Source: Nematocida parisii ERTm1
Lineage: Eukaryota; Microsporidia
Assembly: GCF_000250985.1 (NCBI RefSeq)
Contig: NW_013524651.1
Coordinates: 62,001-126,000, forward strand
DNA length: 64,000 bases
Direction: 5' to 3'
Positions 3,983-47,407 of the stretch are shown one piece after another; position 1 is the stretch's first letter; every line of letters starts with the position of its first letter. The position numbers were made by a program, and so were the translations under genes. The notes under the pieces are model-generated. The model had not been told where the DNA came from. It saw only the letters and a list, made by a program, of their open reading frames with translations, and searched no databases.

Positions 3983-5080
3983 TTAAAGCAAATACATTGG
4001 CTCCACACACTTAATAGACTTGCACTGGCCAGTGCACGTTGAATTGCTGCAGATACAGACAGTCATGCATGACTTTTTCCCCGATTCAAGCTGCTTCTTC
4101 TGATTCTTGTAATATCCCATTATTCCGTCTAAAAACTGGAAGTCGATTTTTTCATCATGGAGCTGCTGAACATCTTTCTTTGTGGTATTTGCGATTTCCT
4201 CTATTAGCATCTTTGTGCTGATGTAGTTCTGGTTTGCAACTTCTTCTGGAAGTCCTTTTTGCTGATAGAATCCAATATCAGACAGATCTCCAGTGGAAAC
4301 AATTTCCTCTTTGGTTCCAACAGGAACACCAGAGAAGTATCCACTTGAATCTACAAGAGTTCCTCCTTCGTTCATTTGGAATTTTATCTTTCCCCAATAA
4401 TCAGTATACAATCCATTTCCTATGGGATATGCCATAATTCCAGTAATCGGAGAAATCCCACCAATTGCGCCTTTTCTCTCTACAAGAGTGTTGTAATAGT
4501 TTCCTATAACATTTGCAGCAGCTAGTCCGTCCTTTATGTTTAGTGAGTAGCTAGATGAAGAGCTAGCGTGCGCGCTGGCATGAGAGCTGGAATGGGAGCT
4601 TCCTGAAATAGCGCTGCCAGATCCAACTGCCGACTCTGTGAGCTCTGGCCCACCATGATTAGAAAATCCGCTCCCTGCACTTGCGCTTGCCTGTGCTTGA
4701 GATTGGGAATATCCGTGGGGTGGGCTAACACTCTTATTCTTTGCGTATCCATCTTCACTGCCTGGCATACGACTGTGTCCACTTCCGTGATATTTTGGAT
4801 CGCCGCTTTTTCCCGGCTTAGAGTAATGTTGCCCATTTTTGTATGGATTCTTTCCATACTTGTCGCTTGGCCCGCCGTATTTGTTAGAATTTCCATACTT
4901 GTCATATTTTCCAGGATGCCCATATTTGTTATTTTTATCATGATGGTGGTGGTGGTCATGTTGATGGCCATGTTTGTTTTTGTCTGACTTTCCTATCCAG
5001 ATCCCTCCAAAAATTCCCTTTTGCCCTGCTAGAACAGTCTTTGTAATTAATAGTGCTAGTATAATAATTTGTATTTTCAT
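3983..5080 (-). CDS. secreted His/Gly/Tyr/Lys-rich protein with TKEE and CxCxN modules
   Basis: A 365 aa secreted protein of no family I recognise. Seen: a signal peptide (MKIQIIILALLITKTVLAG), GIFG at 22-25 followed by KS, then a His cluster (HGHQHDHHHHHD, about 38-49) that could bind metal. Next come a Tyr/Gly/Lys repeat stretch (KYGN, KYGG, DKYG), a Ser/Ala/His stretch (about 130-180) and a globular region at about 185-330 containing G-x-F-x-G-V...G255-TKEE. The Cys-rich tail has C342-x-C344-x-N346-x2-C349-x3-C353. The GIFG..KS, TKEE and Cys modules occur in the same order in the much larger protein at 44552-47407, which argues for common ancestry despite unrelated low-complexity filler. 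A spore coat, polar tube or exported matrix role is inferred from secretion and composition. Confidence 0.78.
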   Translation of the reverse strand: MKIQIIILALLITKTVLAGQKGIFGGIWIGKSDKNKHGHQHDHHHHHDKNNKYGHPGKYDKYGNSNKYGGPSDKYGKNPYKNGQHYSKPGKSGDPKYHGSGHSRMPGSEDGYAKNKSVSPPHGYSQSQAQASASAGSGFSNHGGPELTESAVGSGSAISGSSHSSSHASAHASSSSSYSLNIKDGLAAANVIGNYYNTLVERKGAIGGISPITGIMAYPIGNGLYTDYWGKIKFQMNEGGTLVDSSGYFSGVPVGTKEEIVSTGDLSDIGFYQQKGLPEEVANQNYISTKMLIEEIANTTKKDVQQLHDEKIDFQFLDGIMGYYKNQKKQLESGKKSCMTVCICSNSTCTGQCKSIKCVEPMYLL

Positions 5081-5606
5081 AAATTGAAGGGCGCAGTCTG
5101 GTTATATACACAATTGTAAGACAAAATCAATACACACACATCTGCATTCTGATTGTTGCCACCTCTATAGAAAGTGTTTTGTAATACTATTCGCCTATTT
5201 TATTTTAGTGTATAAAGTGTTGTTATGATACCATGGCAGCACCAAATACTGATTATTCTGTTACCATCACATTATTTGCAACAGTTTCATAACCTATTGT
5301 TCCTTGGTGTGTTTTTTGGTTTTGTGGTATTCTCTAAATATTATTTTTCCTTTTAGAATATTTTAAATTCTTTTTATTCCCGCATAATAAATGTATACAA
5401 AGTCTTTAAATTTAGTTATAAATATGAATGAGTTTATTTATAATTAGATAAAGGAAAATCTATTGAATGCAAAAGAAGAAAGATGTCTAAAACGGCAATA
5501 AAACCATACAAATCAGACGAAACCAGCAATAATCGGTTACTGTAGAGCATCCAGCAAAAGAGCGCGCATATCTTATTTCAATAAACCGCCTTCAATTAAA
5601 AATCTA
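5081..5606. other. intergenic, upstream of the 3983 gene
   Basis: AT-rich spacer between two minus-strand genes, holding the promoter of the 3983 gene. A 20-codon ATG ORF near 5483 is too short to support. No RNA gene is seen. Confidence 0.55.
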
Positions 5607-8600
5607 TTAAAAGAGAGCATTCATGATGTTGTAGTGCAAGCCAAGTTTGGACTTTGTATAGTTGACATTCTTTATACTTATATATATATTTAAAATATCC
5701 GATAGATCTATGGGCAAACTATTCTTTAAACTTTCGATGTTTTCTTTTAATGGAGGACTAAGTATGTAATACATTTCATTGTCTTTGCTAAACAATTCAT
5801 TCATAAAAGCTCTCATTTCTGGACATAAAAGAGAAATTGTAAAGCTCTCTCCTGTGCTTTTTTTTGTATATATACACAATCCATATCGAAGAATATCCTG
5901 TGATACGTGCTTTCTTTGAAGCATTTTTAGTAATAAAGATAAAATAGCAAGCTTCATATTGGTTTCTATGGTGCTAATGCTATAATATGGTATTCTTAGA
6001 TCTAAGTTATAGTTAATATACTCTTCTGTATTAAATTGTATTTTAATGTACCAAGAGAGTTCTATTTCATTATCTTCAAATTCTTTTTGCTTAATATTCA
6101 TGTTGTAGCAATCACAGTCTTCATAAAAACTATTTATACCTAGTATGTAGAAATCGCTGTAATAATATATTTCACGTCTAAATTTGTTAAGTATTTCTAT
6201 AATTGTCTGTTTTCGATCTTTTTTCTTAACCATACGGTCTATCGAGCTAGAAAATTTAATAGGAACCAAGTCTTGATAGTTCTTAATGGACTCAAATTTA
6301 TATTTTTCTGGCTTTAGAACATATGGACCAAAATGCACAACAGATGTCATTAGTCTAGGTAGAAAGAGCGGGATTCGTGGCACACCAATATTTGGTTCAT
6401 ACCTATCAAACAACTTCTTTGCCTCTGCTTTGTTTTCTTTGTATGCTGTATTAATTGTCTCTATGCTAATTGGATTAAGCTGTGCAAATAAAAATTCGAT
6501 TTCGTCTAACCCTTCTTCAATATAGTACAACACAATATCAAATCCATCATTATGCATTTCTTCTATGGTTTTGTCCATGTCATGTATACTATTACTATTT
6601 TCCAATTTTCTTTTTTTAATCTGATCATTATTAAGCTTTGTGATTAATGACCAGGTTTTGTCATTTCTGTTATACTTGAATGGATATATAGTGTTATTGT
6701 ATCTCTGATTATACATAGTTTTGTTACACAACAGTTTACTTGCATGATTTACAATATTCTCAATTGTATGTATATAATGATACACTTCGCTGCCATCCTC
6801 AGTAGAAACAAAAAAGGGAATGTGCACAATGTGCATCTGATGCGTGCTGTTATCTACAAGCTGAACATGGTAGTGCGGCGAATATGGTATAGAAATGATT
6901 TCTGACTTAGCGTGAGTATAGACTATACTTTTTTTTATTATTTTGTCTAATTTTCTACTATTCTCTTTTGTATTGGTATATTTAAATACCATACTGCATT
7001 TTCTTTTATCTGGGATTGAAATAACATCTTTTCCTTGGTATAGCTTGGTGTTACTGGGATCTATTTTTGTGTATTGTTTCATGTATAGATAACAATTATT
7101 TGGTTCTAAAAAAGAAGAATTACTTATACTGCCATTAATATTGGTTTCATACAAATAATAAGAGTGCTTGTAAAAATATGCAAATGTTTTATATACACAT
7201 TTATACACATCAATATCATCACTGTTATGTCTAAAAAGTCTTTTCTTAATCTTTAGTATATTGCTATATGCATTTTCCATTAAGCTGTGGTTATTGTGAA
7301 CTTTTCCATATAAGTATTCTATAATACAAAATTGAGCGCATTTGTTTTTAGATTCTAAGCTGGCGTTACTTTTCATGATTTTTTGTTTTAATAGATGGAT
7401 TTCTTCGTACTTCATATAGAAAAGATCTTCATATATTTCTGGGAGGCATAGAATCAATAGGAGCTGTTTTTTTAAATGCCGGTTTTTTAGATTTTCTACT
7501 ATATTGATAGACGAGCTCAACATAACCTGATTATTATAAGCTATTAACATGCTTTCTGCGTGCCATAGAAGATTTATACGCCTTTTAGTATAGATGATAC
7601 CAAGCGTGATTTGATTAAGATCAGATTCCACTTTTAAATTGGTTTTTGATGAGTTTTTTATAGGGACTCTATAAGAAGATTTACATTTCGCATTTAAATC
7701 TGACAAAATATTAGGATAATAGGACAAATCACAACTTTGGAATATATCATTTTCTATCTTTTGTTGCTTAGATAGATAGCCAATAAGATTCAATCTTTTG
7801 TGTATATTTTCTTTTTTAGCTAAGTACAGTGCAACCCATACATTTTTGTATTTATTAGCATTATCTCTTATCTCTTTTATTGATTTTGAATATTCATCTT
7901 CTGTATACATCATAGAATCGAGGGATAGTGGCATGGGATAATTGTCTTGGTCTTGTTCATTTTTTATAAATTCTAGTATATAATCATGCAGAGCTGTTAC
8001 AATACTTTTATACTCGTCTGAATTTCGAATAGATGACGTTATAAAGGAGATTTTCTTTAATTTATTAACAGTGTTGTAATTTATATTTATAGAAATGTAT
8101 GATATAGCACTTTCAGAGTTTTGATTTTTTTGTTTTCCATCTATAGATGTACTTGTTGTTTGAGTGCTTTCTAGACTCTTGGTGATTCTAGACAATTTTC
8201 TGTTTTCACTGCAGGCAGGAGGAGAATATGGCATTGGATTTGTAGATATATTTTGTAGTTGTATATTATTACAAGCAAGATTAGTACTATTTAATTCAAG
8301 TAGTGTATATTCTTTCTCTGGGTTATATTTTATACTTGTAGAAGGTGAGCCAAATGTATGTGATATTTCTGGTTCAACCCAGTTATTTCTGAAGAGTGTA
8401 TTATTGAAAGAACTATCTTGACCAATATATGAACTATTTGAATATTCACCATTTAACAAAGAGTAGCTGCTGTTATAGGAATTATTTGTATAATTTGGAT
8501 CAAATAGATTTGAAACTGGTATTTTATATAAGTCTTCTGCTAACTCATTACTACTGGTATTTAAAAAAGCAGCTAGAATATTATATGAATTATATTCTTG

Positions 8601-8861
8601 TTCCCCATATATTGGTTGTTCATCATAAGATGGTTCTTTTAAATTATTCACAGACACATTTTCGGGTTGGTTGCTAGAATAACTTTGCTGTAAGAAATAA
8701 TTATTACTTGTGCTATTATTCAACATATGCACGCCATCCCAATTGGAAGCAAAAACAATGGGTTTAAACCCATTTAGTTGTATTGCGTATATCAACATGT
8801 ACCAAATAAACAGAACTATTGTCTTTCTTTTAATTATTCGGAGCATTTGTGAATTTTTCAT
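5607..8861 (-). CDS. large lineage-specific secreted/membrane protein, paralogue of 53319-57242
   Basis: A 1084 aa protein not matching a family I can name. Seen: a hydrophobic N-terminal segment (about 10-30; signal peptide or anchor), an Asn/Ser/Tyr-rich low-complexity region to about 250, then a long mostly helical domain and a C-terminal globular domain. It is clearly homologous over most of its length to the 1307 aa protein at 53319: PEIYEDLF against PEIYEDMF, YHVQLV against YHIQLV, DMDKTIEEM against YMDKTMHEM, LLFAQLNP-like against FIFAQFNP, PRIPLFL in both, and LGLHYNI against LGIHCEI near the C-terminus. Such paralogues are typical of expanded, possibly exported, microsporidian families. 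An in-frame ATG at 8846 is an alternative start. Confidence 0.75.
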   Translation of the reverse strand: MKNSQMLRIIKRKTIVLFIWYMLIYAIQLNGFKPIVFASNWDGVHMLNNSTSNNYFLQQSYSSNQPENVSVNNLKEPSYDEQPIYGEQEYNSYNILAAFLNTSSNELAEDLYKIPVSNLFDPNYTNNSYNSSYSLLNGEYSNSSYIGQDSSFNNTLFRNNWVEPEISHTFGSPSTSIKYNPEKEYTLLELNSTNLACNNIQLQNISTNPMPYSPPACSENRKLSRITKSLESTQTTSTSIDGKQKNQNSESAISYISININYNTVNKLKKISFITSSIRNSDEYKSIVTALHDYILEFIKNEQDQDNYPMPLSLDSMMYTEDEYSKSIKEIRDNANKYKNVWVALYLAKKENIHKRLNLIGYLSKQQKIENDIFQSCDLSYYPNILSDLNAKCKSSYRVPIKNSSKTNLKVESDLNQITLGIIYTKRRINLLWHAESMLIAYNNQVMLSSSINIVENLKNRHLKKQLLLILCLPEIYEDLFYMKYEEIHLLKQKIMKSNASLESKNKCAQFCIIEYLYGKVHNNHSLMENAYSNILKIKKRLFRHNSDDIDVYKCVYKTFAYFYKHSYYLYETNINGSISNSSFLEPNNCYLYMKQYTKIDPSNTKLYQGKDVISIPDKRKCSMVFKYTNTKENSRKLDKIIKKSIVYTHAKSEIISIPYSPHYHVQLVDNSTHQMHIVHIPFFVSTEDGSEVYHYIHTIENIVNHASKLLCNKTMYNQRYNNTIYPFKYNRNDKTWSLITKLNNDQIKKRKLENSNSIHDMDKTIEEMHNDGFDIVLYYIEEGLDEIEFLFAQLNPISIETINTAYKENKAEAKKLFDRYEPNIGVPRIPLFLPRLMTSVVHFGPYVLKPEKYKFESIKNYQDLVPIKFSSSIDRMVKKKDRKQTIIEILNKFRREIYYYSDFYILGINSFYEDCDCYNMNIKQKEFEDNEIELSWYIKIQFNTEEYINYNLDLRIPYYSISTIETNMKLAILSLLLKMLQRKHVSQDILRYGLCIYTKKSTGESFTISLLCPEMRAFMNELFSKDNEMYYILSPPLKENIESLKNSLPIDLSDILNIYISIKNVNYTKSKLGLHYNIMNALF

Positions 8862-9625
8862 ATTTTACAAATTAAACCAGTATATATCTTATTTTCAACT
8901 AGAATGATTTAATATAAAGTATTTGCATATCATAAGAAATAAATATAAGAAGAATTATTGGACCAATATAATCAACTGTATAACCCGAACATGATAAAAT
9001 AATGTATATTTAGATAAAATATAAGAGACTTCTCTATTCAGAAGACAAAATATACTTATTCTTATAAGTATTAAAATAAAATAATTAGTATATTCATATA
9101 CTACTGCTCTATAAACACAGCCGGGTTTCAAATTCGTATAATCAACTGATGGAGTTCTGCTTATATAGTACAGTTAGTAGTGTTATAATTTTATTTTATT
9201 TCTCACAGGAATAATAATTTGGGCTATTAGTAATAATTATTGAATTATATGCAAGTATAGAAAAATAAATTATTGGTTTTTATTCTTATATATTCTATTT
9301 GTACATTTACTAGAAAATAGATCAAACAAGATAAAAAGCATCAAAGTACAAGAATTATTTATATTTCTGTTAGAAATAACGTATAAATAGACAAATAAGA
9401 GATTATTAGCTCTATTTTATACCGATATATTCACTTGTAATATACAACAAATATATTTATTTGTTCTTTCATAATTTATTTTATTGGTTTATAATCGCAT
9501 AACTACTGTGATGCTATAATCATAGAAGTTATAAATTGAAGATATCATTTGTTTAATTTAAATAGAAAATAACCAGTTATTTAAATGACAAAAGTATAAA
9601 TAGTCTGATAAATCACTAATTTATA
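8862..9625. other. divergent intergenic region of two accessory genes
   Basis: A 764-bp AT-rich spacer between head-to-head genes, presumably holding both promoters. It contains one copy of the recurrent 9-mer (TAACCCGAA on plus, 8981-8989). A TATA-like tataaat lies about 30 bp before the plus-strand gene at 9626. Confidence 0.55.
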
Positions 9626-13823: not shown

Positions 13824-13861
13824 TGGTTAAAAGAAATTCTCTGCAAATTATTTCAAAGCAT

Positions 13862-15999: not shown

Positions 16000-18555
16000 T
16001 TTGTCTTTTTATTTTTGTGTAGTTTCATTAAATATATGCGGGTTACAGATTTAATTGGTTGCTCCAATGAAAGAAAGCAGAAAAACAATTGGTTTTATAA
16101 AAGATGAAAATACTCCGAGAGGAAAGAACAAATAAATAATTAAAATATAGGGGGTCCAAGCAGCAGGCCAGAAGATAATAATTAACGGATATTTTTATGC
16201 AAAAATTTCGAGCTGTGTACTATAATATTACACTTAATAAGAAATTTAAATATTTAGCAAATCACAAAGAGCTGGCTCATTTAAAATCATTGTTACAGGC
16301 GCCTGCATGGCATAATATGCCATAGAGTTTCAGCTAGCACCATAAGACTGTATAAAACTATATGGGGCTCTAAAAATTTGAACTTGTATCTTTAATTTCT
16401 GTATAATTTAGAGTATGATAAGTTGGTTATTCCCTTGTGCATTATTAAAACTCATGCCAATTTTTTATTATTCTTATCTTATATAGTTTCAATTTCCAAT
16501 TATGCAACTCTATAAGACTTCGCGGATGTGGGCGTGAGGCTCCCACATGAGATATGGTTCCTCTCCTACGATAGAAACCAACATAATATAATTCAGAAAT
16601 CACTTAAAATTGCCTTTTATAGTAACTCTGTTTAAGATGCACTTTGAAGTAAGACATGTATTTATTCAATATTCTCGTATATGTACACAATTAGAACATG
16701 TTGAACAGATAATTTATGTCTACTTGATGCATTTCAAATTGCATGCTTCTTTATTTCTAGTTTATTAGCTGAACTAAGTGCAATGACTATTTTATAAATA
16801 GAAGAAAACTTTCACATAATAGCAAGTCACATTTAGTAGAAATCTAAAATACACTATTTTTAGTAGAAGTATATCTCTATTTTTCAAATAATTCTTCCTG
16901 TTATATAGCATTTCATGGGTATTCTAAGAATATATGTAATTAAGAGAAACAAATATAAATTCTTGAATGTAAAATACTTCAATAAAATTACTAATTGTTT
17001 CATCCATTCTATTATATTCAATGGAAATTGGTATAACTTCTCATATGCTATGAGTATTATATTTATTGGCAGCCTATTAATTTTATTCTATAAATAAATT
17101 AAAGAATATAAGTTAAGGTTGTATAAGTCGAAACAAACTATGGTATATTTGCTATCGAATGAGTGGTATCTCTTTAACTAGCACAATTTTCTATCTTCAG
17201 TGCTTCTGGCTATTTCTAGGATTAAGTTTAATATAATTATTAAAATAAAATGTACACATTTAAATTTTCAAATATGTACCCCTTATAATTTATTCAATTT
17301 CATTCTTATATAAATAAAAATAAAATAGTCACATGGTATAATAAGCAAATACTTTGCTAAAGAACACCAATAGACAAACCATCCTAGAATTATACTATAG
17401 GAACACAACAGTGTGCAGTATATAGTGGGTTTAAATAGACACAAGTAGTATTAAATATATATGCATGGTGTGAATATTTTACAACTTAGTATAAATACGG
17501 TCAAAGTTAAACACTATGGTAATATAAATATAATTATCTACATAGCTTTTCTTCCTTTGGTTTGTTACTTATGTAATCACAGTAAACAGTTTAAATTCGT
17601 ATGTGGTTAGTAATTTATAAAAAAATCAGAATAGCTCGAAATATACTGTAGGTTATATTAAAAATAAAGTAAGGAATTATATTATTTATAGTCAATTTTA
17701 TTTATTCTACTTTATAAGTAGTTAAATTAATAAGAAGCAAAAATTTAAATAAAATACAGTCATAATAACATAATTGCAGGTAGTCAAGTTAACAATTAAT
17801 GATATTAAAGAGCTATTACATTACTACATATCACAAATGCATATATTAATGGTTAGAGTTGTTTTCTTAGGAAAAGGCATTCTTAAACTTTGGCTTTTAT
17901 TGAATTTGTATACGTATTTATAAACCGTATAATCAATTTAATTTATGTTGACTTGTTGTGCCAACAATAATTTCTGATCTAATCTGTGCTGTCATGTTTA
18001 TGTAAATATTACAATAACTCATGCCACGCTAAACCAATGCTATTCTTAGCACACAACAGTTAGAACAAGTACGATTTCTTGCATTAAGCCATATATTAGG
18101 CTATGCGCTTAAAATAGAGTACTATTCATGCCATTATGTATAATTATTTTCGGGTTATTGTATAAGTTTTCTGATGATTCAAAGAAATACTCTTTGAAAA
18201 AATATTCTTAGTTTTATAAATTATTTTTATGAAGAATAGTTACTACATAGTATGAAAAATAAATATAAGTTGTTCTAGAGAATTATTAAATAAATTTAAT
18301 AAACACTCCATTCTATCGAAGAAAACACCATACGAGTATGCCCTGCCACATGTTCTGAAATGCACGAAAAACTAAATACAATTACATGAGTTGCTAAAGA
18401 AAGTAAAGTATGCTAACAGCAAATACTCTTATTACAGAGTTGCAAATTTGAATAGTTTTGGTCGTTATAGCAAATATATTTCTACCAACCAATCTTGGCT
18501 CTAAACTTCAATTTCTATTATATTTGGGTTATAAGAATTAGTAAACTATGATTTA
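16000..18555. other. 2.5-kb gene-poor region
   Basis: The longest stretch here without a convincing gene. It holds a GC-rich island with two potential hairpins (16515-16585, listed separately), a perfect 8-bp-arm palindrome at 16307-16323 (ATGGCATA-A-TATGCCAT), a 9-mer TTCGGGTTA at 18149-18157, and a 60-codon ORF at 16915-17097 ending in a hydrophobic segment, which I do not trust. A non-coding RNA gene or decayed genes are possible. Confidence 0.5.
16515..16585. other. GC-rich island with two potential hairpins
   Basis: A sharply GC-richer patch in AT-rich DNA. ATGTGGG and CCCACAT form a 7-bp stem around a 9-nt loop (about 16525-16547). GGTT and AACC flank a second possible stem (about 16556-16580). 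It does not fold into a tRNA cloverleaf by eye. It could be a structured RNA or a mobile-element scrap; the strand is unknown. Confidence 0.3.
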
Positions 18556-18807
18556 TTAAAGAGTGTTGGCTGCAATTGATCTTCTCTGGTTAATCTTCAT
18601 GTATTTTTTCAAGTGTCTCATTCTACCAGTTCCTTGTGCTCTTCTTCCTTGTGCTTTTGGTGATCCTGGGTTTCTCCATCTTCTTTCTGGGTATGCACAG
18701 CTTGAACAACTGTGCTTCTGTTTGTGATATGACTCGTTACCACATCTAATACACTGAATGTGATTTCTCTTATTTCTCTTACCAAAACTTGTTGTTCCCT
18801 TTGTCAT
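18556..18807 (-). CDS. RPL37: 60S ribosomal protein eL37
   Basis: An 83 aa large-subunit ribosomal protein with the eL37 start [11 protein letters not shown] and a zinc-binding Cys set: CIRCG (C19, C22) and CSSCAYP (C34, C37). The basic RNA-binding C-terminus contains [20 protein letters not shown]. Length and motifs fit a complete protein. It sits alone between 2.5 kb and about 1 kb of non-coding DNA. Upstream (minus strand) is a T-rich tract followed by ACATCCC and a 12-nt gap before the ATG, resembling the element in front of other housekeeping genes here. Confidence 0.96.
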
Positions 18808-18840
18808 TTTTAACTAACCGGGATGTAAAAATAAAAAGAA
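18808..18840 (-). promoter_or_regulatory. T-tract plus ATCCC element before eL37
   Basis: On the minus strand a T/A-rich tract leads to ACATCCCGG, ending about 10 nt before the ATG. It matches the T-tract plus CC pattern of uL22, APC11, V-ATPase c and Ub-eL40. It is probably a start-site/initiator signal. Confidence 0.45.
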
Positions 18841-19796
18841 TAAAGAGAAAAAAAACTGAATAAACAGAAATATTCACTAAAATTAGCATAGATCATAATT
18901 CAAGTGAAAAGAGAAAAAGTCGCATAGTTATGCGTGGAATGCTGCCTATGCATGCTTAATTAGACGCTATTTTCTATGAATGCATAAAATGATTGGAAAC
19001 CAATATAATATATATAACATATTATAAAATGAGAAGTAAAATTTAAATTATTTAGAATAGAAACAGCAGATTGTGGGTAAGTATTAGTAGCCAAAGATTT
19101 ACATTAACACTGTATTTTACTCTAGACTGCATTATAAGGATATTTTTCAAGTATTCTAATACATTTTATATTATACCATGCATTATATATTTTTATTAGA
19201 GAATAGAAAAATATATTTTATGTATAATAGTTAGCCTATTATTTTATGAATTTAATAAAAGAATGCAGGTTTACTTAGAATTATTTATGCACTAAAAAAT
19301 GATTTAGTGAAGTATTAATTAATTTTAAATAGATCAAAAACCATTATAGAGACTGTGGTGACACCACCACTCAAGCGCGCATGCCCGATACCGATCTTCC
19401 AATGCGCCTATTAGCGCGGTGATCCCACCTCGACAAAAGGACAAGGTTTAATAATCACAGATCAACTTTGGACTATATAAGTGGCAAGCATCCAAACAAA
19501 TCATGGGAGAACCACGGAAAACATTTACTACATGGCTCAGCGTCAGTAGCGCCACAAGGACTCCGCATCCGCGCGCACCCCCACATCCCAATAATCATAA
19601 TAAAGAGCATCCATCAATACTATCTCTATCTATCTTGAACTATGCTATCCGGGCGGTGACGGTGCCTCCCCGTGAGCACGTTAGAGACACTAACTATATT
19701 CATATTTTATGCAAATAGAATGAACTAATGCTTAAATTATGTACAACAAAGCAATTTTGGGTTATATGAATTGGTAAATTAAAAAAGGATCTTTTT
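18841..19796. other. intergenic region containing an LTR-like island
   Basis: AT-rich sequence upstream of eL37, then the GC-rich LTR-like island (19354-19681). The remainder shows no gene; the 72-codon frame at 19503-19718 lies within the island and looks incidental. Confidence 0.5.
19354..19681 (+). mobile_element. solo-LTR-like island
   Basis: A 328-bp GC-rich block in AT-rich DNA, beginning TGTGGTGACACC. It has a TATA-like ctatataag near 19474 and an AATAAA near 19599, the expected order of promoter and poly-A signal in an LTR. The 7-mer TAGAGAC lies immediately before it (19347-19353) and after it (19682-19688), as a target-site duplication would. The 3' end lacks the usual CA, no internal retroelement genes are present, and no second copy is in the window, so the call is tentative. 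Confidence 0.38.
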
Positions 19797-20606
19797 ATGA
19801 ATTATTTAATGAAAATAGTTCATATTTTAAAACACATGCTTATAACAGATACGGATAAAAATTTCTCGATAAAATGCCGAGCACACTATAAAACATATAC
19901 TTCTATAAGAAGATTTACGCGCAAGAGTATAGTAGAGCGGGCATTGCTTATTTTGTTCTGTGTGGCGGAAATAGCTGCATTCGATAAAATAGAAAACATA
20001 TATAACTATAGCATTAAGAGCATAATAAAGAGTATGGTAATTAGACCACTTGGGCCATTAGATTTTCTAAATCGAAAGTTGTTTAATGAAAACAAACTTA
20101 CACTGAATAAAAGACTTCTGGCAATAGAAATAGAACCACATAGCAAATTAAAGATATCTGGCCTAAATCTATTAGAAAAAAACTGTTCTTGTAAAGCAGA
20201 ACGGGAGATGGATACGCTTTGTTCTAATCTATCATCGCACAAATATAATTTTCAGAGTTATATGAATAGTTACCATAGGGCACTTATTATAATGTTTCCA
20301 TCAGAAAACAACATTTTAAGCATACGCAGCAGTAAAAGAAAATCATTTTTGGACTTTTTAGAGAATGGATTAACAAAACAAAAATCTATGTATATTCTTG
20401 CCTCTTTACTTCTTCTATCGGAGGGAATAGACGTTCCAGTAACTATAAATTCTAATGATAGTGAGGTGTTTTTTAAACTGGATGAGATTACAATTGGTGA
20501 TAGTGTTATTGGTATAGACATAAACCTAAAAGAAAGTATTTATGATGAGCCACTTAAAAAAAAAGAAAAATCTGTGAGAAGCAATATTCTTATTATTCTG
20601 AGATAG
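19797..20606 (+). CDS. lineage-specific protein, N-terminal part, frameshifted
   Basis: A 269-codon frame with a hydrophobic segment at about 45-62 (ERALLILFCVAEIAAF), then a charged, mostly helical region. I do not recognise the family. It runs out shortly after a 9-base A run (20556-20564). The next frame (20675-22564) is open back to 20558 and reads on in the same style, so these are almost certainly the two halves of one gene of about 920 codons. One base lost from the A run would explain it, either a sequencing error or a real inactivating mutation. The start is the first ATG; internal ATGs just before the hydrophobic segment are alternatives. Confidence 0.6.
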   Translation: MNYLMKIVHILKHMLITDTDKNFSIKCRAHYKTYTSIRRFTRKSIVERALLILFCVAEIAAFDKIENIYNYSIKSIIKSMVIRPLGPLDFLNRKLFNENKLTLNKRLLAIEIEPHSKLKISGLNLLEKNCSCKAEREMDTLCSNLSSHKYNFQSYMNSYHRALIIMFPSENNILSIRSSKRKSFLDFLENGLTKQKSMYILASLLLLSEGIDVPVTINSNDSEVFFKLDEITIGDSVIGIDINLKESIYDEPLKKKEKSVRSNILIILR

Positions 20607-34319: not shown

Positions 34320-34333
34320 TTATTTTTTTATCC
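34320..34333 (+). promoter_or_regulatory. T-tract plus ATCC directly abutting the APC11 ATG
   Basis: tattttttttatcc runs straight into ATG. If transcription starts at or near the CC, the mRNA has almost no 5' leader. Confidence 0.5.
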
Positions 34334-38755: not shown

Positions 38756-39096
38756 AAAAAATAAAAATTAAATTACTTATATAATAGACTAATTACAACG
38801 AAGCCTATCAAGCAGCTCTACTAAAATAAAAGAATTAATTACACATTATGTAAAAAGAACACTATAATGCATTATTATATACACATTATATAAAAATTCA
38901 TGACTAAATAAGCCATTACCAAAATATTATAATATACTGTGCAGTTTAAATAACGCATAGTATAATTAATCTTGGAGCAATATAAGACAATACTTATTAC
39001 ACAATCATTATAAATAATTATATTATACCCTATGTATAATATATATTGTTACACTGTATTTATACATCTATCAACTGAATACCATTTATTTATGAC
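38756..39096. other. intergenic region, very AT-rich
   Basis: A 341-bp spacer between two minus-strand genes, with repeated tatata/attata runs. No gene is seen. The Hsp70-like ATG is preceded by a T-rich tract without CC. Confidence 0.6.
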
Positions 39097-39495
<399 letters not shown>

Positions 39496-39499
39496 TCAT

Positions 39500-39522
39500 G
39501 GGGTAAGAAAAAAAAGAAAAAA
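39500..39522 (-). promoter_or_regulatory. T-tract plus TTACCCC element before Ub-eL40
   Basis: On the minus strand a T-rich tract (tttttttctt) ends in ACCCC directly before the out-of-frame ATG at 39499, and 4 nt before the ubiquitin ATG. Confidence 0.5.
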
Positions 39523-40029
39523 ATAGAACAGCAGAGAGAAATATAACCAGAAATATCACAGAAAGAGAGTGCACCACAGAAATATTCTACAATAAAATAG
39601 AGGTACTGCTTAAGTATAAATAATACAGTGTATAATTATATACAAAATATATTATTCATTAGAATTAGTATAATTTACTGTATACTAATACAGAATATAT
39701 AAGACATAGTGTATTAAGTAGTATATATAAGACATATAGTAATAAGTACTGCGTATACATTAAGCAATATATATTGATAATTACATAATATATTGTGTAA
39801 CATATTCCATTATATAATGATGTTTGTATAAATAGTATTATTTTATATGCAATGTTTATTAATTATTAGACTGTGCTAATCATCAACAGATATTACTATA
39901 TGATATTATAGCATATTTAATAGGAATATGAAATATTACGAAATATTACACGTGGTATAAACCCAAGAAATAATTTATACTGGAATACTTCAAAATCATA
40001 AAAATCATATTCTTGTGGATCTCACTGCT
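39523..40029. other. intergenic region, very AT-rich
   Basis: Dominated by repeated atata/tataat runs (39600-39900). It separates the Ub-eL40 promoter from the 3' end of the AHA1-like gene. No gene or RNA is recognised. Confidence 0.6.
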
Positions 40030-40770
40030 CTATCCTATTAAATTGGCTCTTTTAAGGCGGTCTATCACAAGGCTTTCATAATACGAAATAAACTTGTCAC
40101 AGAATCCAATGGGAACTGTACCGCATATCCTTAGAACACTTCCCTGCATTCTTTCCTTTAAAATGAACTGTAAAGTAAATGTCTTTCCTTCCATGCGCAC
40201 CGTGCACTCTCTCTTTAATCCTTCTCCATCCTCTTTCACTTCAGATGGAAGTATTTCTAAAACCTTCCCAGGACAGCTTACAAAAGAGACCTCTGGGGAT
40301 ATAACAGGAACTATGTCTCTGTTGAATAATATACTGGATATGTGCTGTACTGGTCCTTTAAACTCTATTTCCTTCTTTAATTCCTCTGACTCTATTGGTT
40401 TACTCTTTGACGTGTCTGTGTTTACCTGTGATATTTGGTGTATTTCTTTTTTGGTCTCTGTCTGTTTTTTTTGTAATCCTTCTATGACCTCTTTTACTGA
40501 TGTAATGAATATTTCCTTAAGTGGAGATTCTTCTACCTCATCTGATGATATGCCAGTATACCCCACTATGTATAATTTGGTGCTGTCTTTCTGTAGTACA
40601 CCTGAAATATCCAATCTGTAGGATTTCCTGCCCATTCTTTGTGTTAAATATATTGTGGATGGGTCTTCTGTGAATGTGATTCCTTTGCTTTTTAAGTGTT
40701 CTTTAAGTAAATTTATTCCTTCTGCGGTGTAATCATCTTGTGTCCAGTGGTAATTGTCTTGGTTGAACAT
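40030..40770 (-). CDS. AHA1-like Hsp90 co-chaperone
   Basis: A 246 aa protein resembling activator of Hsp90 ATPase. Seen: an N-terminal DNYHWTQDDYTAEGINLLKEHL, close to the NWHW...W...L start of Aha1 N-domains. Next are GRKSYRLDISGVLQKD, a beta-meander, and DEVEESPLKEIFITSVKEVIEGL, which aligns with the closing helix. After a charged linker, a second domain (about 145-246) ends in a helix YYESLVIDRLKRANLIG, as an AHSA1-type (SRPBCC) domain would. Both domains are shorter than in yeast Aha1 (350 aa). I used the ATG at 40770; an upstream in-frame ATG at 40872 adds a Phe/Ile-rich stretch with no homology. Confidence 0.58.
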   Translation of the reverse strand: MFNQDNYHWTQDDYTAEGINLLKEHLKSKGITFTEDPSTIYLTQRMGRKSYRLDISGVLQKDSTKLYIVGYTGISSDEVEESPLKEIFITSVKEVIEGLQKKQTETKKEIHQISQVNTDTSKSKPIESEELKKEIEFKGPVQHISSILFNRDIVPVISPEVSFVSCPGKVLEILPSEVKEDGEGLKRECTVRMEGKTFTLQFILKERMQGSVLRICGTVPIGFCDKFISYYESLVIDRLKRANLIG

Positions 40771-41059
40771 AAAAAGAAAAAAGAAGAGAAAATTATAATT
40801 TCGGATTTTTCGAATTTTTCCAATTATTTTCGGATTATATACAGAAAATAATAGAATTGGTATATATTCCATACAGAAAAAGTAATAAAAATAAATTTAT
40901 TTCTGAATATTGAATTATTCACAGCTATTTAATTATACTTATACGAAATATGAAATATGAATGACAAATGGGTTACTGATTTATTCATTAAATTAGTAGA
41001 AATAATCTTTAAATACGCATTCTCTGATTAATTCGTGATGGATATGGAGACAATTGAGA

Positions 41060-43249
41060 TTATTTGCTTTGAAGCCATCTTATTTCTCTTTGTCTGTCTT
41101 CTTTTTGTTGTTTCTTCTTAATTTCATTGTGTATTTTGTCGGTTATTTTTTCTGGTGTAAACCCAAAGTATTCATATACTGCGCTTGTTGGGCCACTTGC
41201 TCCAAATGTATCTACTCCTATTTGAACTTGAGCATATTTATCCCAGCCAAATGTACTTAGGGCTTCTATACTCACAGATATATCACAGAATAAAATATCC
41301 TCTACATATTCTTGTGGCTGTTCTTGAAAGAGTTCAAAAGAGAGAAGAGAAACTACCCTTACATTGTAATTATTCAGAAGGGGCTTTACACGCAGGGCCA
41401 GAGGTACTTCTGAGCCCGTTGCTAGAAGAAGCAACTTCTGTGCTGAATTATCTGGGGAGTAGTCTGAAATGATGTGCGCCCCTCGGAGTATTGAAGTAAT
41501 TCTAGAAATATAAGAAGTATTCTTCAATGGTGCAGAATTATCATAAATACTTTGATTTTCTGCTATGCCTTCTGTTTCCTGTACATCCGTCTTTAATTTA
41601 TTATCGGTTCCTGTATTTTGTGCTTTGCTATTCTTTCTAATGCCTTTTTCTGGGATTTCTTCAATGCCTTGCCTGGATAGAATGATGACACATGGGCGCT
41701 CTGATTGATAAAAGGCATACAGAACTGCTGCCTCTACCTCTGATCTAGATGCTGGGCGAAATGTAATCAATCCAGGTGTTGCCCGAAGAAGAGCAAGCAT
41801 TTCCACTGGCTGGTGAGTTGGGCCGTCGCCGCCTAGAGCTATTGAGTCGTGCGTTGCAATATACACAGAAGGTGCCTCAGAAAGTGCAGCTATGCGGACA
41901 GCAGGAAATCCATAGGCTAGAAAATTAAGGAACGTGCTGCAGTACGCCCTGTGCTCACCAAACAAAGCAATTCCGCATACAATCCCACACATTGCGTGCT
42001 CTCTAATACCAAAGTGTATGAAATTCTGATTCTCTTCAGTGTTTTTTTCTGTTTTCGGATCTATTTGGCAACTATGATCACCTTCAATGATTTCAGGCTT
42101 TTTAGTCAGTGCTGCACCTAGACAAGTGGATTCTGTTAGATCTGCAGATCCCCCAAGGATGTTTGGGTTCTTTAGAAGGCCAGGAACAAGATCACCAAAT
42201 ATTTCTCGTGTTGATTTATTTGGTTTCTTCTTCTCAACATAATTCTGGCTTTCTAACATTTGCACAAACTCTTTCTCGTATTTATTATTTGTTTTCTTGT
42301 TCTCATCTTCCATATTGACTTCTTCCACACCATTGCAGGTTCTGCCAGCATTGGCATTTTTCAAATCATCTATTTGTCTCTCCTTCCACTGCATGTATTC
42401 CTGTGCCACTTCTTCTTCTCGTTTTCTGTAGATTTCTTTTGTGCTTTCTGAGATGTAAAATGACTTTCCGCATAAATTGTACTTTTCCTGGAGTTTTGCT
42501 ACCTCTGCTTCTCCTAACGGAGATCCATGGGCTTTTCTGTTGTTTTCTACAGATGTGTCCTTCCCTATCACAGAGTGCATAATTAAGAACACTGGCCTGC
42601 CGTATTGTTTACCGAGAATTTCTTCTATTCCTTCTGTATCCTCTGCATCCACCTCAAGCACTTCATAATTCATGGATTCCATCCGCTTTTTAGCATCATC
42701 AGATGTGGAATAAGAAGTTGCCCCATCAATCGTGATTTTATTGCTATCAAAAACAAAAAAAAGATTCTTCAGCTGCAAATGCCCCGCAAGCGAAAATGCT
42801 TCTTGCGAAATTCCTTCCTGCATGCACCCATCTCCTAGAATGCAAAATACTCGATTGTTTTTCTGTTTTTTACTTATCGAGATCGCATATCCTACGGCCT
42901 GTGCTACTCCCTGCCCAAGTGGACCAGTAGTTGCATCTATTGCATTATCTCGTGAGTACTCTGGATGGCCAGGCGTTTTACTCCCAATCTGCCTGTATTC
43001 TTTTAAATCTTTTTCTGTCAAAACCCCTCGGCAGAATAAAGCAGCATACAGAATAGCAACTGAATGCCCATTAGAAAGCACTAAAATATCTCGTTCTGAC
43101 CATTTAAGATCACATTTTGTTATTTTTAAAACCCTGCTGTACAATACGTGAAATAAAGGTGCCATTCCAATTGCACTCCCTGGATGGCCCTCTCCTGCAT
43201 TCTGCACTATCTGAGCCACTAAAAGGCGCATTTCCTGCACTGCTCCCAT
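41060..43249 (-). CDS. TKL1: transketolase
   Basis: A 729 aa thiamine-diphosphate enzyme of the non-oxidative pentose phosphate pathway. Seen: GEGHPGSAIGMAPL, LSNGHS, ATTGPLGQGVAQAVG, the ThDP-binding GDGCMQEGISQEAF...DSNKITIDG, and the Pyr domain with GIREHAMCGIVCGIALFG (catalytic Glu), THDSIALGGDGPTHQPVE and ITFRPAS. The C-terminal domain ends near FGASGPTSAVYEYFGFT. Lys/Asn/Glu-rich insertions lie between the PP and Pyr domains (about 300-345), near 385-400 and near 560-595, and make it longer than the usual 660-680 aa; none hits an active-site motif. It is divergent from V-ATPase c with 268 bp between starts. Several microsporidia retain this pathway despite losing most carbon metabolism. 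Confidence 0.95.
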   Translation of the reverse strand: MGAVQEMRLLVAQIVQNAGEGHPGSAIGMAPLFHVLYSRVLKITKCDLKWSERDILVLSNGHSVAILYAALFCRGVLTEKDLKEYRQIGSKTPGHPEYSRDNAIDATTGPLGQGVAQAVGYAISISKKQKNNRVFCILGDGCMQEGISQEAFSLAGHLQLKNLFFVFDSNKITIDGATSYSTSDDAKKRMESMNYEVLEVDAEDTEGIEEILGKQYGRPVFLIMHSVIGKDTSVENNRKAHGSPLGEAEVAKLQEKYNLCGKSFYISESTKEIYRKREEEVAQEYMQWKERQIDDLKNANAGRTCNGVEEVNMEDENKKTNNKYEKEFVQMLESQNYVEKKKPNKSTREIFGDLVPGLLKNPNILGGSADLTESTCLGAALTKKPEIIEGDHSCQIDPKTEKNTEENQNFIHFGIREHAMCGIVCGIALFGEHRAYCSTFLNFLAYGFPAVRIAALSEAPSVYIATHDSIALGGDGPTHQPVEMLALLRATPGLITFRPASRSEVEAAVLYAFYQSERPCVIILSRQGIEEIPEKGIRKNSKAQNTGTDNKLKTDVQETEGIAENQSIYDNSAPLKNTSYISRITSILRGAHIISDYSPDNSAQKLLLLATGSEVPLALRVKPLLNNYNVRVVSLLSFELFQEQPQEYVEDILFCDISVSIEALSTFGWDKYAQVQIGVDTFGASGPTSAVYEYFGFTPEKITDKIHNEIKKKQQKEDRQREIRWLQSK

Positions 43250-43499
43250 ATAGAAAAAAAAACATGCAATATATTCCCAGCAATGCTCTACATTGCATAA
43301 TAAATAATTTTATAAAATCAGAGAATGCCCGTATTACACGCATAACCAGAAATTCTCTTTTTATAACTCTGCGTATATTTATTAAATAATTAATTATTTA
43401 TAGTTTTACTCTTATTTGATTTGTGTTATTCTTCTTTAGTCTATATTATACTTAAGCTATCTATTATTTATACACAATGTATAAATAATATATTTTATT

Positions 43500-43517
43500 T
43501 TATTTATTTTTTATCCC
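43500..43517 (+). promoter_or_regulatory. T-tract plus ATCCC abutting the V-ATPase c ATG
   Basis: ttatttattttttatccc directly precedes ATG, the same arrangement as APC11. A transcript starting here would be essentially leaderless. Confidence 0.5.
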
Positions 43518-43979
43518 ATGCAGAAACTACTTCTTGAGTGTATCTATCCTATCGGTGTAATTAGTCTGCTATGCCCCACATTTGCTGGTGTAAGTCTGGG
43601 CATGAGCAAAGCATCAATTGGTATCTGTAATTCAGCTAGTATTAAGTCAGATATAATACTGACTATAATACCATCTGCATTTATTGGTGTGGGTGTGCTT
43701 TACTCTGTTTTACTTTTCTTCACCACTGCCCCACAAGGCACTCCAACAGAGTTTTCTATTCCCATGAAATGGCTCGCAGCTTATATTGTCACTGGAATGG
43801 GAATGTTCTGGGGGTCAATCAGTCTAGGAGATATTTCTGCAGTAGCCACTGTTACTGCTGCACAGCAGAAGAGATTTAAGCCTTCTTTCTTCTTGTTGCT
43901 TGTTTTTGGTGAGTTGATAGGCCTATTCGGACTAATAGTTGGATTTATACTGAGTGTTAGTAATAGAGTGTGGGCATAA
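43518..43979 (+). CDS. VMA3: V-type ATPase proteolipid subunit c
   Basis: A 153 aa membrane rotor subunit with four predicted TM helices. TM4 carries the proton-binding Glu132 in FGELIGLFGLIVGFIL, matching the FAE.LGLYGLIVAL signature. TM1 and TM2 contain GVSLGMSKASIGI, the conserved small-residue packing motif. Subunits c, c' and c'' are not separable by eye; the length and lack of a fifth helix favour c or c'. It is divergent from transketolase. Confidence 0.93.
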   Translation: MQKLLLECIYPIGVISLLCPTFAGVSLGMSKASIGICNSASIKSDIILTIIPSAFIGVGVLYSVLLFFTTAPQGTPTEFSIPMKWLAAYIVTGMGMFWGSISLGDISAVATVTAAQQKRFKPSFFLLLVFGELIGLFGLIVGFILSVSNRVWA

Positions 43980-44551
43980 TAAATCACTATTAAATATGTT
44001 AAGTGATTGCTTTGCATTGCTAGTATTTGTCTTATATAGTAATAGAGAAATGAAAACTGAAAATAGAGTGACTATATAATAAACACGGCTATAATAGGCA
44101 ATAATTATACTGATTATATTCCATAATTAGTAATAATAGTAATTACATTGTAATTTACCGTATTATTGCTAAATATAACGGTTAATTACTAAATATAGAA
44201 ATAAAAGGTATTTACTAATGTATTTTAGTCTATTGTTATACTAGAAAATATGCTATTTTTACATAATGTAAATTTGTCTACACAAATTATACTATAGAAC
44301 ACTCTAGACCAATTAATCACACTGCATGTGGTATAGACTAATTATAATATATTCTGGACTAATTATCACAGAGTAATACTTCTTAGTCTGTATTATAGCT
44401 AGAGTATTATTGGGCTATACAGTATTCTTTGGGTATTTCCTAGTCTGTATTATATACAGATCAGTATTTCGGGATATTATTTGTTTATTTGGATTATTTA
44501 TACCTGTACAAGTAATTCCTTATACTTTAGTTTCATTTGTTATTGTTTATT
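43980..44551. other. intergenic region upstream of the 44552 gene
   Basis: A 572-bp AT-rich spacer with no gene recognised. It contains repeated tagactaattat-like phrases (44305-44365) without clear unit structure. Confidence 0.55.
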
Positions 44552-47407
44552 ATGAAGGTGAGTGGAAGAGCAGTCTTGTGCCTATTACAATTAGTTATAG
44601 TCACTGCAAAAATATTCCCAGATCTGACACAGTCTAATATAGCAAACACTGATACTAAGCAGGCTAACTCTGAAAAGAATAAAAGTACTTCTGAAACAAG
44701 CAAAGCCAAAGCCAAGCCTGATGCGAGTAAAGCCAAGCCTGATGCGAGTAAATCTAAAGCGAAGCCGGACGCGAGTAAGGATAAAAATAAGCCAGATGAT
44801 AAATCATCAGATAAGTCTGGTGGTATATTAGGTTTATTTGGAGGCAAGTCAAGCACAAATAAGAGCAAAGACAGCAAGAAAAATAGCGCAGATGTAAATA
44901 AGGACAAGGATAAATCTAAAGATCAAAAAAATAAGTCGCAAGATAAATCCTCTGGTGGTATATTTGGGCTATTTAGTGGGAGTAAGTCACAGGATAAGTC
45001 TAAAACAGATTCCAAGCAGTCTAAGGATGCCAAAGATGCTAAAGACAAGGCTAAGGCGGATAAGGCCAAGAAAGACAAGGATGCTAAAGACAAGGCCAAG
45101 AAAGACAAGGATGCTAAAAACAAGGTTAAGGCGGATAAGGCCAAGAAAGACAAGGATGCTAAAGACAAGGCCAAAGATGCCAAGGACAAGCCTAAAGACA
45201 GCAAAGATAAATCTAAGGATGATAAAGATGCCAAGGACAAGTCTAAGAATGATAAAGATGCCAAGGACAAGTCTAAGGATGCAAAGGATGGCAATGACAA
45301 GTCTAAGGATGGCAAAGATAAAAATGATTCGGGAGCTACACCAATCGTTGCAGGTGTACCGCAAAACAAAGATAACAAGCCTGATAGCGTGAATGATAAG
45401 TCTACAGTCAGTTCTGTATCCAGTATATCTAGTATATCCAGTGCTTCTACTGTATCTAGTATTTCTACTGTGTCTAGTGTATCTAGTATATCCAGTGTGT
45501 CTAGTGTATCTAGTATATCCAGTGTATCCAGTATATCCAGTGCATCCAGTGTATCTAGTATTTCTACTGTGTCTAGTGTATCCAGCATATCTAGTGTATC
45601 TACTGTGTCTAGTATGATTGGTTCTGCCTCTAATGATTATATTTCTACTGTGCTATCGTATGGTAGCCGTATATCTAATTATAACACAACCAATGTGTCT
45701 ATTACCAATATAGCTGTATACTACAATGTAGAGTGCAGCTGCTATAAAGATGTATCTGATAGAATTAGTTTATATTCATCTAATGGCGTGATTAAAGATA
45801 AAACAGGAATTTTTATAGGTGTGGACTGTGGTAAGACTAAGGAAGAAGCCAGAAGTAAATCACAATTGACTTCGACTGGATTATACCAAACAAATATTTC
45901 CCAAGAGGAAATAGACGCACAGACAAAATCCCTGCAAAGCATGGTTAGTACACTCGGCAAAAATAATATTAGTAGCAGTACAGTTAATAGTGTAAGTATA
46001 TCTAATAATGTATCTGGCGGCAGCAGCACTACTAATGTAGATGGTGCCAGTGCGACTAGTAATAGTGTAAATGTATCTAGCAATAGTGCAGATAGTGCAA
46101 GTGCAGCTGCTGGGGCCGGTGCCATCGCAGGCGCGGCTTCTGGTGCTAGCGCGAATGCAGGTGCAACTGCTGGAACTGATGCCAGTGCTAATACCGGAGC
46201 AGCCTCTGGTGCTAATGTAGGCGCGGCTTCTGGTGCTAGTGCTGATGCTAATGCAGGCGCAGGTGCAAGCGATGCAAATGTACCTAGCTCACCCATACCA
46301 AATGCAAATGGTGGCGATGCTAATATGTCTAGTAGTTCATCTAGTGTTTCTATAGCTACTGTTCCTCCTACTGTTCCTAATACTGGTATAAATAACCAAA
46401 GCTCACCCAATCCTTCTTTACCCAGCTCTGGCAGTAAGCAAGGATGTGGCAACATGTGCTATGACGTTGTAAGATACTTTAAGATAAAGTTGCCTCAGCC
46501 TGTAATACACTCTATATCTACACTTACAAATATACTATCAGTATACAAAACCGTGGATAGATTAATTACTACTACAAATGTAATATATAGTACTAATACT
46601 GTAGATAGAGTAGTCACCACTACTAACACCGTATACAATACTAATACAGTGTATACTACTAAAATACATACTAAAATCATAACAAACACCGTTACAGTAA
46701 AGCCTAAACCACAGAATGCATGTAAATTGTGCAATGTAGAATATACAGAGTATAAGACAATTCCCATCTCAATTGATGCTTCAGCCTTTGTAGAAGAATT
46801 ATGTCCATGTGAGAATGCATTCTGTCTTAATCCCTGCACGCCCATGATAGATGCAGTGCATGGGCATATACTAAATAATGGAGAAAGTATACAGAACACA
46901 CAAAATAAACAAGTAAAAATAGGGCAGAGCAATCAAGCCAATTATGTAGATAAAATACAGCAGATTGACAGCCAATCTGGCCAAATCAGTCAAAGCAGCG
47001 GTCAATCTACGCAGAGTAATGAACAAAGCAGTGGACAAATAAGCCAATCTGGCCAGAGCACTGGTCATATAGATCAAGCACAACAGGGCAGTGGCCAAAA
47101 TCTACAAAGCAATCAGACGAACATACAAGGCAGCCAACAGAGCATACAAAATAGGCAGGGAAGTGTACAAATCAGCCAGAATAGTGGCAGTGCAAGCCAA
47201 GTAGATCAAATGCAGCAGATCCACCAGGGGGGTCAGATTGGTGATATACATCCAATGGGTATAGATGGAGAAATACTTGGGCATGTACAAATAGTAGATG
47301 GTCATTTAGTACAAGGTATAAGCAGCAGTGTTAGTGCAAGCAGCACTAGTGCCGGCATACATACTGCCCCTGCTAGAAATACACCAGATATACCTACTAT
47401 TGTATAA
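44552..47407 (+). CDS. secreted mosaic low-complexity protein (TKEE/CxCxN family)
   Basis: A 951 aa protein with no database-style family I can name. In order: a signal peptide (about 1-22); a Lys/Asp/Ser repeat region (about 30-265) punctuated by GILG near 90 and GIFG near 135, each followed by KS; a Ser-Val-Ser-Ser-Ile ladder (about 285-355); a globular segment (about 380-470) with G-x-F-x-G-V...G427-KTKEE; a Ser/Ala/Gly-rich stretch (about 485-595); a Thr/Val ladder (about 650-720); PISID; C751-x-C753-x-N755-x2-C758-x3-C762; a Gln/Ser-rich region (about 785-895); and GHLVQG...SS near the end. The longest frame opens on TTG, so I use the ATG at 44552. The GIFG, TKEE and Cys modules are shared with the 3983 protein. 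A spore wall or polar tube role is inferred only. Confidence 0.78.
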   Translation: MKVSGRAVLCLLQLVIVTAKIFPDLTQSNIANTDTKQANSEKNKSTSETSKAKAKPDASKAKPDASKSKAKPDASKDKNKPDDKSSDKSGGILGLFGGKSSTNKSKDSKKNSADVNKDKDKSKDQKNKSQDKSSGGIFGLFSGSKSQDKSKTDSKQSKDAKDAKDKAKADKAKKDKDAKDKAKKDKDAKNKVKADKAKKDKDAKDKAKDAKDKPKDSKDKSKDDKDAKDKSKNDKDAKDKSKDAKDGNDKSKDGKDKNDSGATPIVAGVPQNKDNKPDSVNDKSTVSSVSSISSISSASTVSSISTVSSVSSISSVSSVSSISSVSSISSASSVSSISTVSSVSSISSVSTVSSMIGSASNDYISTVLSYGSRISNYNTTNVSITNIAVYYNVECSCYKDVSDRISLYSSNGVIKDKTGIFIGVDCGKTKEEARSKSQLTSTGLYQTNISQEEIDAQTKSLQSMVSTLGKNNISSSTVNSVSISNNVSGGSSTTNVDGASATSNSVNVSSNSADSASAAAGAGAIAGAASGASANAGATAGTDASANTGAASGANVGAASGASADANAGAGASDANVPSSPIPNANGGDANMSSSSSSVSIATVPPTVPNTGINNQSSPNPSLPSSGSKQGCGNMCYDVVRYFKIKLPQPVIHSISTLTNILSVYKTVDRLITTTNVIYSTNTVDRVVTTTNTVYNTNTVYTTKIHTKIITNTVTVKPKPQNACKLCNVEYTEYKTIPISIDASAFVEELCPCENAFCLNPCTPMIDAVHGHILNNGESIQNTQNKQVKIGQSNQANYVDKIQQIDSQSGQISQSSGQSTQSNEQSSGQISQSGQSTGHIDQAQQGSGQNLQSNQTNIQGSQQSIQNRQGSVQISQNSGSASQVDQMQQIHQGGQIGDIHPMGIDGEILGHVQIVDGHLVQGISSSVSASSTSAGIHTAPARNTPDIPTIV
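45015..45315 (+). repeat. Lys/Asp-coding repeat array (KDAKDK type)
   Basis: Degenerate tandem units, many around 30-33 bp (for example gccaagaaagacaaggatg, repeated), code for KDAKDKAKKDK-like sequence. Some units are identical, pointing to recent expansion. Confidence 0.75.
45405..45620 (+). repeat. Ser-Val/Ile minisatellite
   Basis: Tandem 9-bp-multiple units of the type tctagtgta and tccagtata code for SSVSSISSVS over about 70 codons. Long open frames on the other strand here are artefacts of the repeat. Confidence 0.8.

Follow-up and report, generated by a model that had tools for sequence, protein, structure and literature searches.

Microsporidia of the genus Nematocida infect nematodes, Caenorhabditis elegans among them (PMC10393165). 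We analyzed a stretch of 64,000 nucleotides from the Nematocida parisii ERTm1 genome (the window; contig NW_013524651.1, positions 62,001 to 126,000), which is part of a 3.98-Mb assembly of 11 contigs that was itself searched. Two genes in this window encode secreted-looking proteins with dissimilar low-complexity bodies: P0003 (positions 3983 to 5080) and P0001 (positions 44552 to 47407). An earlier reading of the letters alone, here the sequence-only reading, had proposed that the two proteins share three modules and that a third protein, P0002 (positions 1727 to 3463), carries one of them. Our comparisons indicate that P0003 and P0001 share one homologous domain, and together they form a new, small family of secreted proteins that appears to be restricted to Nematocida. 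Their features are collected in Table 1, where N-terminal calls refer to a hydrophobic run only and cleavage sites were placed by eye.

Table 1. Coordinates of the features of P0003 and P0001 in the window, with the basis of each call (HMM, hidden Markov model; AF2, AlphaFold2)
Feature	Position	Strand	Basis
P0003, secreted, 365 amino acids (aa): disordered G/S/H/K body, conserved C-terminal domain, Cys tail	3983..5080	-	search, alignment, AF2
P0003 signal-peptide-like hydrophobic N-terminus, residues 1-18	5027..5080	-	hydrophobic run, cleavage by eye
P0003 GIFG motif, residues 22-25	5006..5017	-	alignment, motif scan
P0003 conserved C-terminal region, residues 181-365	3986..4540	-	alignment, AF2, body versus C-terminal differences
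P0003 shared TKEE module, about residues 210-298	4187..4453	-	HMM, shuffles, hhalign, secondary structure
P0003 Cys tail C338-C358, six Cys	4007..4069 (motif C342-C353 at 4022-4057)	-	alignment, pattern scan
P0001, secreted mosaic, 951 aa	44552..47407	+	homologue search, composition
P0001 signal-peptide-like hydrophobic N-terminus, residues 1-19	44552..44608	+	hydrophobic run, cleavage by eye
P0001 GILGLF motif, residues 91-96	44822..44839	+	motif scan
P0001 GIFGLF motif, residues 136-141	44957..44974	+	motif scan
P0001 shared TKEE module, residues 382-469	45695..45958	+	HMM, shuffles, hhalign, AF2, secondary structure
P0001 CYDVVRYFKIK segment, residues 631-656, 59% identical to P0013	46442..46519	+	pairwise comparison
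P0001 EYKTIPI ... CPCENAFCLNPC segment, residues 727-781, 55% identical to P0013	46730..46894	+	pairwise comparison
P0001 Cys motif C751-C762	46802-46837	+	pattern scan

The P0003 gene lies on the minus strand, and the plus-strand frame is interrupted by stops. When about 5.8 billion proteins were searched, with 3,231 candidates scored at a threshold of E 10, nine relatives came back (P0004 and P0010 to P0012 below are members of this P0003 type; P0013, the P0001 homologue, is not). The five that come from named organisms all belong to Nematocida (Nematocida sp. AWRm78, N. minor, Nematocida sp. LUAm3, N. homosporus, and Nematocida sp. AWRm77), the nearest being the AWRm78 protein at 95% identity. 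One scan each of viral contigs and of genome contigs with the P0003 family as the query gave no relative.

When the ten P0003-type sequences were aligned, 36 of the 38 invariant columns fell within residues 184 to 300 of P0003. They belong to a conserved stretch of about 185 residues at the C-terminal end, preceded by a fast-changing disordered body. Between P0003 and its closest homologue, the body differs at 15 of 163 positions, three of which are gaps, and the C-terminal region differs at 2 of 185; across the ten members the N-terminal bodies have little in common apart from the GIFG motif. The length that precedes the module, signal peptide counted, ranges from 165 to 324 residues. In P0003 itself residues 19 to 180 are 10% His and 20% Ser, and the domain at residues 181 to 337 is acidic, with an isoelectric point (pI) of 5.2. 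An AF2 model made with the family alignment reflects the same division: the predicted local distance difference test (pLDDT) stays below 50 over residues 1 to 179, and block means reach 84 to 96 over residues 181 to 310. A nearly invariant six-cysteine tail ends all nine complete members; P0012 stops earlier.

P0001 is built as a longer series of segments: K/D-rich, S/V-rich, module, S/A-rich, CYDVVRYF, T/V-rich, Cys motif, and Q/S-rich. The search for its homologues scored only the 7,999 candidates sharing the most words and found one, P0013, an 848-aa protein of Nematocida sp. AWRm80 (N. botruosus in PMC10393165). Besides composition, P0001 and P0013 have three segments in common: residues 378 to 468 of P0001, at 48% identity (E 3.5e-22), and the CYDVVRYFKIK and EYKTIPI segments of Table 1. 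A narrower search with residues 378 to 470 gave no match and missed P0013 itself; it is therefore insensitive, and P0001 is more widespread than the database searches suggest.

The link between the two protein types comes from the region around the letters TKEE. BLASTP paired P0003 with P0001 at E 1e-5. We then built a domain profile from the C-terminal region of all ten P0003-type members and ran it against 527 sequences, namely, P0013 and the 526 frames of at least 40 aa scanned in the window. P0003 itself scored 342 bits, P0013 24.2 bits, and P0001 24.1 bits (E 7.8e-7); the next frame scored 4.9 bits. The best score among 4,000 whole shuffles of P0001 and P0013 (2,000 each) was 9.0 bits, and 4,000 shuffles in 20-residue blocks reached 11.3 bits. 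Compared as profiles with hhalign, the P0003 and P0001 types matched over 72 columns with a probability of 93% (E 3.4e-7), and when full-length P0013 was added to the P0003 family in a MAFFT alignment, the GIFG, module, and Cys motifs came into register in order, unguided. These sequence comparisons show the module to be a case of true homology between P0003 and P0001. It extends over some 75 to 88 residues and is thus longer than the sequence-only reading had claimed. The letters TKEE turned out to be a poor signature, being present in 2 of the 10 P0003-type members (P0003 and P0004); [ST][KR]x[ED] occurs in all ten, and F-x-G is invariant in all ten.

Structure prediction points the same way. 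Residues 375 to 475 of P0001 were modeled separately by AF2, with P0013 as the sole aligned sequence, and this model reached pLDDT values of 52 to 71 in its core blocks. Of 86 aligned positions, 70 have the same secondary structure as in the P0003 model, with strands and helices in the same order (the module alignment used for this comparison and for the structure database search below held seven of the ten P0003-type members). Shuffled segments agreed at 34% of positions on average, and 3 of 20,000 shuffles did as well as the real one; a shift of one residue still left 71 to 72% agreement. Because similar sequences have similar local propensities, we regard this agreement as supporting evidence and not as proof. 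The common domain is predicted to be of the alpha/beta kind, with strands, a helix, two strands, and a long helix. None of the three outcomes that the sequence-only reading had named as refuting it came about: the profile match is significant, homologues with the modules exist in other Nematocida, and the two models, one of them of low confidence, share the order of helices and strands.

The evidence is different in kind for the Cys motif, which the sequence-only reading had counted as another shared module. Just three of the 526 window frames, P0003, P0001, and P0002, contain the pattern C-x-C-x-[ND]-x2-4-C-x3-C, and the form with a two-residue loop (C-x-C-x-[ND]-x2-C-x3-C) stands downstream of the module in both P0001 and P0013. 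Shuffling did not reproduce the pattern in 100,000 trials each of P0001 residues 471 to 951, P0013 residues 392 to 848, and the whole of P0002; in P0002 residues 19 to 98 it appeared in 2 of 200,000. Beyond the spacing the signal fades. The domain profile gave −3.5 and −2.6 bits on the two Cys motifs. With a Cys-tail profile built from nine of the ten P0003-type members (P0012, which has no tail, was left out), P0013 came fifth at 4.6 bits (E 0.89), below unrelated frames, and P0001 was absent among the best six matches listed. Shuffles that kept the Cys residues in place reached the real tail-profile score in 136 of 1,000 cases for P0001 and 83 of 1,000 for P0013, and hhalign gave the P0003-type tail and the P0001-type Cys segment a probability of 37%. 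What P0003 and P0001 have in common here is therefore a cysteine spacing placed after a homologous domain.

P0002 has a looser version of that spacing alone. Its Cys segment scored −0.8 bits with the tail profile and 1.4 bits with the P0001-type profile, and its frame was not among the matches listed in the domain-profile search, which went down to an E of about 53. Since 741 of 1,000 and 541 of 1,000 Cys-kept shuffles, respectively, reach these scores, its proposed membership in the family is unsupported; chance resemblance may explain the link. The PISIN of P0002 and PISID of P0001, which had been set side by side as further likeness, amount to four identical residues. A T/V-rich likeness of P0002 to P0001 and P0013 reached an E of 1e-12 in comparisons made without composition correction; under correction P0013 fell to 0.22 and P0001 gave no match, and we took this likeness as shared composition. 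The P0002 gene, on the plus strand, is divergent from a minus-strand gene at 422 to 1666, with starts 60 bases apart. The product of the latter weakly matches the legume-type lectins (PF03388, E 2.3e-4, 21 bits versus a cut-off of 24).

The remaining proposed module, GI[FL]G, is four residues long and recurs within each protein type. Exact GIFG is present in 8 of the 10 P0003-type members, with SLFG and GIFS in the remaining two and F24 invariant; the corresponding motif lies at 22 to 101 in the nine members other than P0003. P0001 has two motifs of this type, and P0013 has comparable ones at 83, 117, and 191. The placement of GI[FL]G directly after the signal peptide holds for P0003 (residue 22) and fails for P0001 (residues 91 and 136). 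Two further ideas about the motif were discarded. As an amphipathic, membrane-active peptide, it had a helical moment reached by at most about 1% of shuffles in only 2 of 10 members (P0010 and P0011), and none of the P0001 and P0013 segments passed, so this was rejected as a general feature. As a genome-wide tag, GI[FL]G[FL]F had five DNA matches, two of them in P0001, against two for the reversed control pattern; the other three lie in short frames (71, 37, and 25 residues) of noncoding appearance. These counts do not amount to a family of tagged proteins.

Of the three modules first proposed, then, one is a homologous domain, and the others are a Cys spacing and a four-residue recurring motif. 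The order GIFG, TKEE module, Cys motif is nevertheless the same in P0003 and P0001, the residue positions given for them (G255, G427, C342 to C353, C751 to C762, and C32 to C45 in P0002) are correct, and homologues, profile scores, and models back the broader proposal of a secreted protein family in which filler that changes freely surrounds a conserved module.

We found no counterpart of this family among described ones. Neither P0003 nor P0001 had a significant match to a Pfam family, a sequence search of solved structures (PDB) gave no significant match, and no such family is described in the open-licence papers searched, as far as their available text goes. With a threshold of E 10, none of the ten P0003-type members matched the polar tube protein family PTP2 (PF17022), in a search whose HMMER filters drop most matches above about 0.1; the same profile was silent in this genome and equally so in 14 control genomes. 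Genome searches with P0003, P0001, the P0013 module, the P0013 C-terminal segments, and a Cys-tail query recovered the P0003 and P0001 genes only, apart from two matches of the P0001 query to the low-complexity part of P0001. As the single-sequence P0013 query missed P0003, a third, equally remote member could be overlooked.

P0001 is flanked by two genes on its own strand. Just upstream, positions 43518 to 43979 encode an ATP-synthase/V-ATPase c-subunit-like protein (PF00137, E 2.3e-7). Downstream, in tandem and 389 bases away, positions 47797 to 49140 encode a Lys-rich protein (25% K) that looks secreted and has no Cys; its K/S-rich body contains the hydrophobic patch SPFSFLNIFNRS. A short T/V stretch of 13 residues in it is 54% identical to P0013 (E 0.76), and a genome search with this protein gives its own locus alone. 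Elsewhere in the window, the proteins encoded at 5607 to 8861 (minus strand, 1,084 aa) and 53319 to 57242 (plus strand, 1,307 aa) share 26% identity across about 850 aligned positions (E 1e-52). They have no Pfam match above its cut-off and are paralogues, possibly belonging to a large Nematocida gene family. The window is compact except for 3.8 kb at 16000 to 19797, which are nearly gene-free; by eye, this interval holds a short open reading frame resembling ribosomal protein eL37 (18556 to 18807, minus strand) and a GC-richer stretch near 19360 to 19660. Rfam and tRNA scans of the window gave no match.

We put at roughly 0.5 the probability that P0003 and P0001 are undescribed, apparently Nematocida-restricted structural proteins of the spore, secreted and composed of a disordered body, an assembly domain, and a disulfide-capable end. 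As such they are candidate building blocks of the spore wall or the infection tube, and we infer for them a role as anchoring or cross-linking units. Their hydrophobic N-termini fit a secretory route, and their layout has an analogy in the PTP2 proteins of Anncaliia discussed below. After export, both proteins would be incorporated into an extracellular structure of the spore, be it wall or polar tube; there the folded domain would act as the assembly unit, the Cys cluster could form intra- or interchain disulfides, the GI[FL]G patches might serve as weak stickers, and the disordered bodies would be spacers of tunable length. Several observations weigh against this proposal. Disordered stretches in a secreted protein are just as compatible with exposure to the host. 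AF2 modeled the Cys tail of P0003 poorly and the P0001 module with low confidence (mean pLDDT of 56, two sequences), and the Cys motifs of the two proteins have no significant similarity beyond their spacing. A single P0001 homologue was recovered, and none by the narrower search, so that its spread is poorly known. Finally, with only two members found in the genome searches, a "matrix family" rests on few proteins.

Host exposure is the first competing explanation to consider. If P0003 and P0001 were effectors, or coated an intracellular stage, and were not spore structure, then their signal-peptide-like N-termini, fast-evolving bodies, and Nematocida-only named homologues would fit the secreted clade-specific proteins described in PMC5423893; like the Nematocida large gene families (NemLGF) and other host-exposed proteins, they are secreted and without known function (PMC10393165, PMC5423893). 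However, the domain and Cys tail of the P0003 type are strongly conserved over several species, and the genome searches found no expansion, with two genes compared to ten or more for NemLGF. According to PMC5423893, only 12% of N. parisii host-exposed proteins have orthologues beyond the closest species group. Given that figure, conservation over several species argues, as a tendency, against a host-exposed role, which we consider rather unlikely. Chance likeness between low-complexity sequences seems to us hardly credible as an account of the family. The bodies are indeed of low complexity, the T/V-rich likeness to P0002 fades under composition correction, and the Cys likeness is one of spacing only. 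The TKEE module, though, lies outside the low-complexity parts, the AWRm80 homologue matches it equally, and the predicted secondary structures agree; for this module, 24 bits against at most 11.3 in the block shuffles rules chance out.

P0003, P0001, or both might also belong to a known polar tube family, of the PTP1 or PTP2 type, from which they have diverged too far for sequence profiles to detect. PTP2 is the closest architectural parallel: it too is secreted, its N-terminal part varies while its C-terminal region is conserved and contains Cys, and the Anncaliia protein has a divergent Gly/Ser-rich N-terminal part followed by a conserved C-terminal part with eight Cys (PMC10229552). An earlier survey counts PTP2 among the core families of microsporidia, lists a transcribed member from N. 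parisii, and includes this species in its PTP2 and spore wall families (PMC3879972), and PTP1, PTP2, and PTP7 were recovered only with dithiothreitol (PMC10229552). But the PTP2 profile matched none of the ten members within the HMMER filters, that N. parisii PTP2 may be another gene, P0003 has six Cys within residues 338 to 358, near its extreme C-terminus, compared to eight in PTP2, and its domain is acidic whereas the C-terminal region of PTP2 is Lys-rich. We judge such a divergent origin distinctly unlikely. PTP6, a His/Ser-rich protein of Nosema bombycis, recalls the His- and Ser-rich body of P0003; its reported orthologues beyond N. bombycis are limited to Encephalitozoon and N. ceranae (PMC10229552). 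Its overlap region is described as mainly beta-strand (PMC10468886), whereas the fold here is mixed.

The polar tube proteins of Nematocida were still awaiting identification in a 2023 study of nematode-infecting microsporidia (PMC10393165). That P0003 and P0001 are these missing polar tube or spore wall proteins, with an undescribed fold and one genus-specific assembly domain reused amid filler of free length, is an unlikely proposal; if it is true, the length of the filler (165 to 324 residues in the P0003 type) could tune the mechanics of the tube or wall between species. The conserved secreted domain, with its foldable core, can be aimed at directly by antibody work and spore proteomics in these C. 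elegans parasites, and a small conserved domain of this kind lets such proteins be recognized across species even where the remainder has diverged past comparison.

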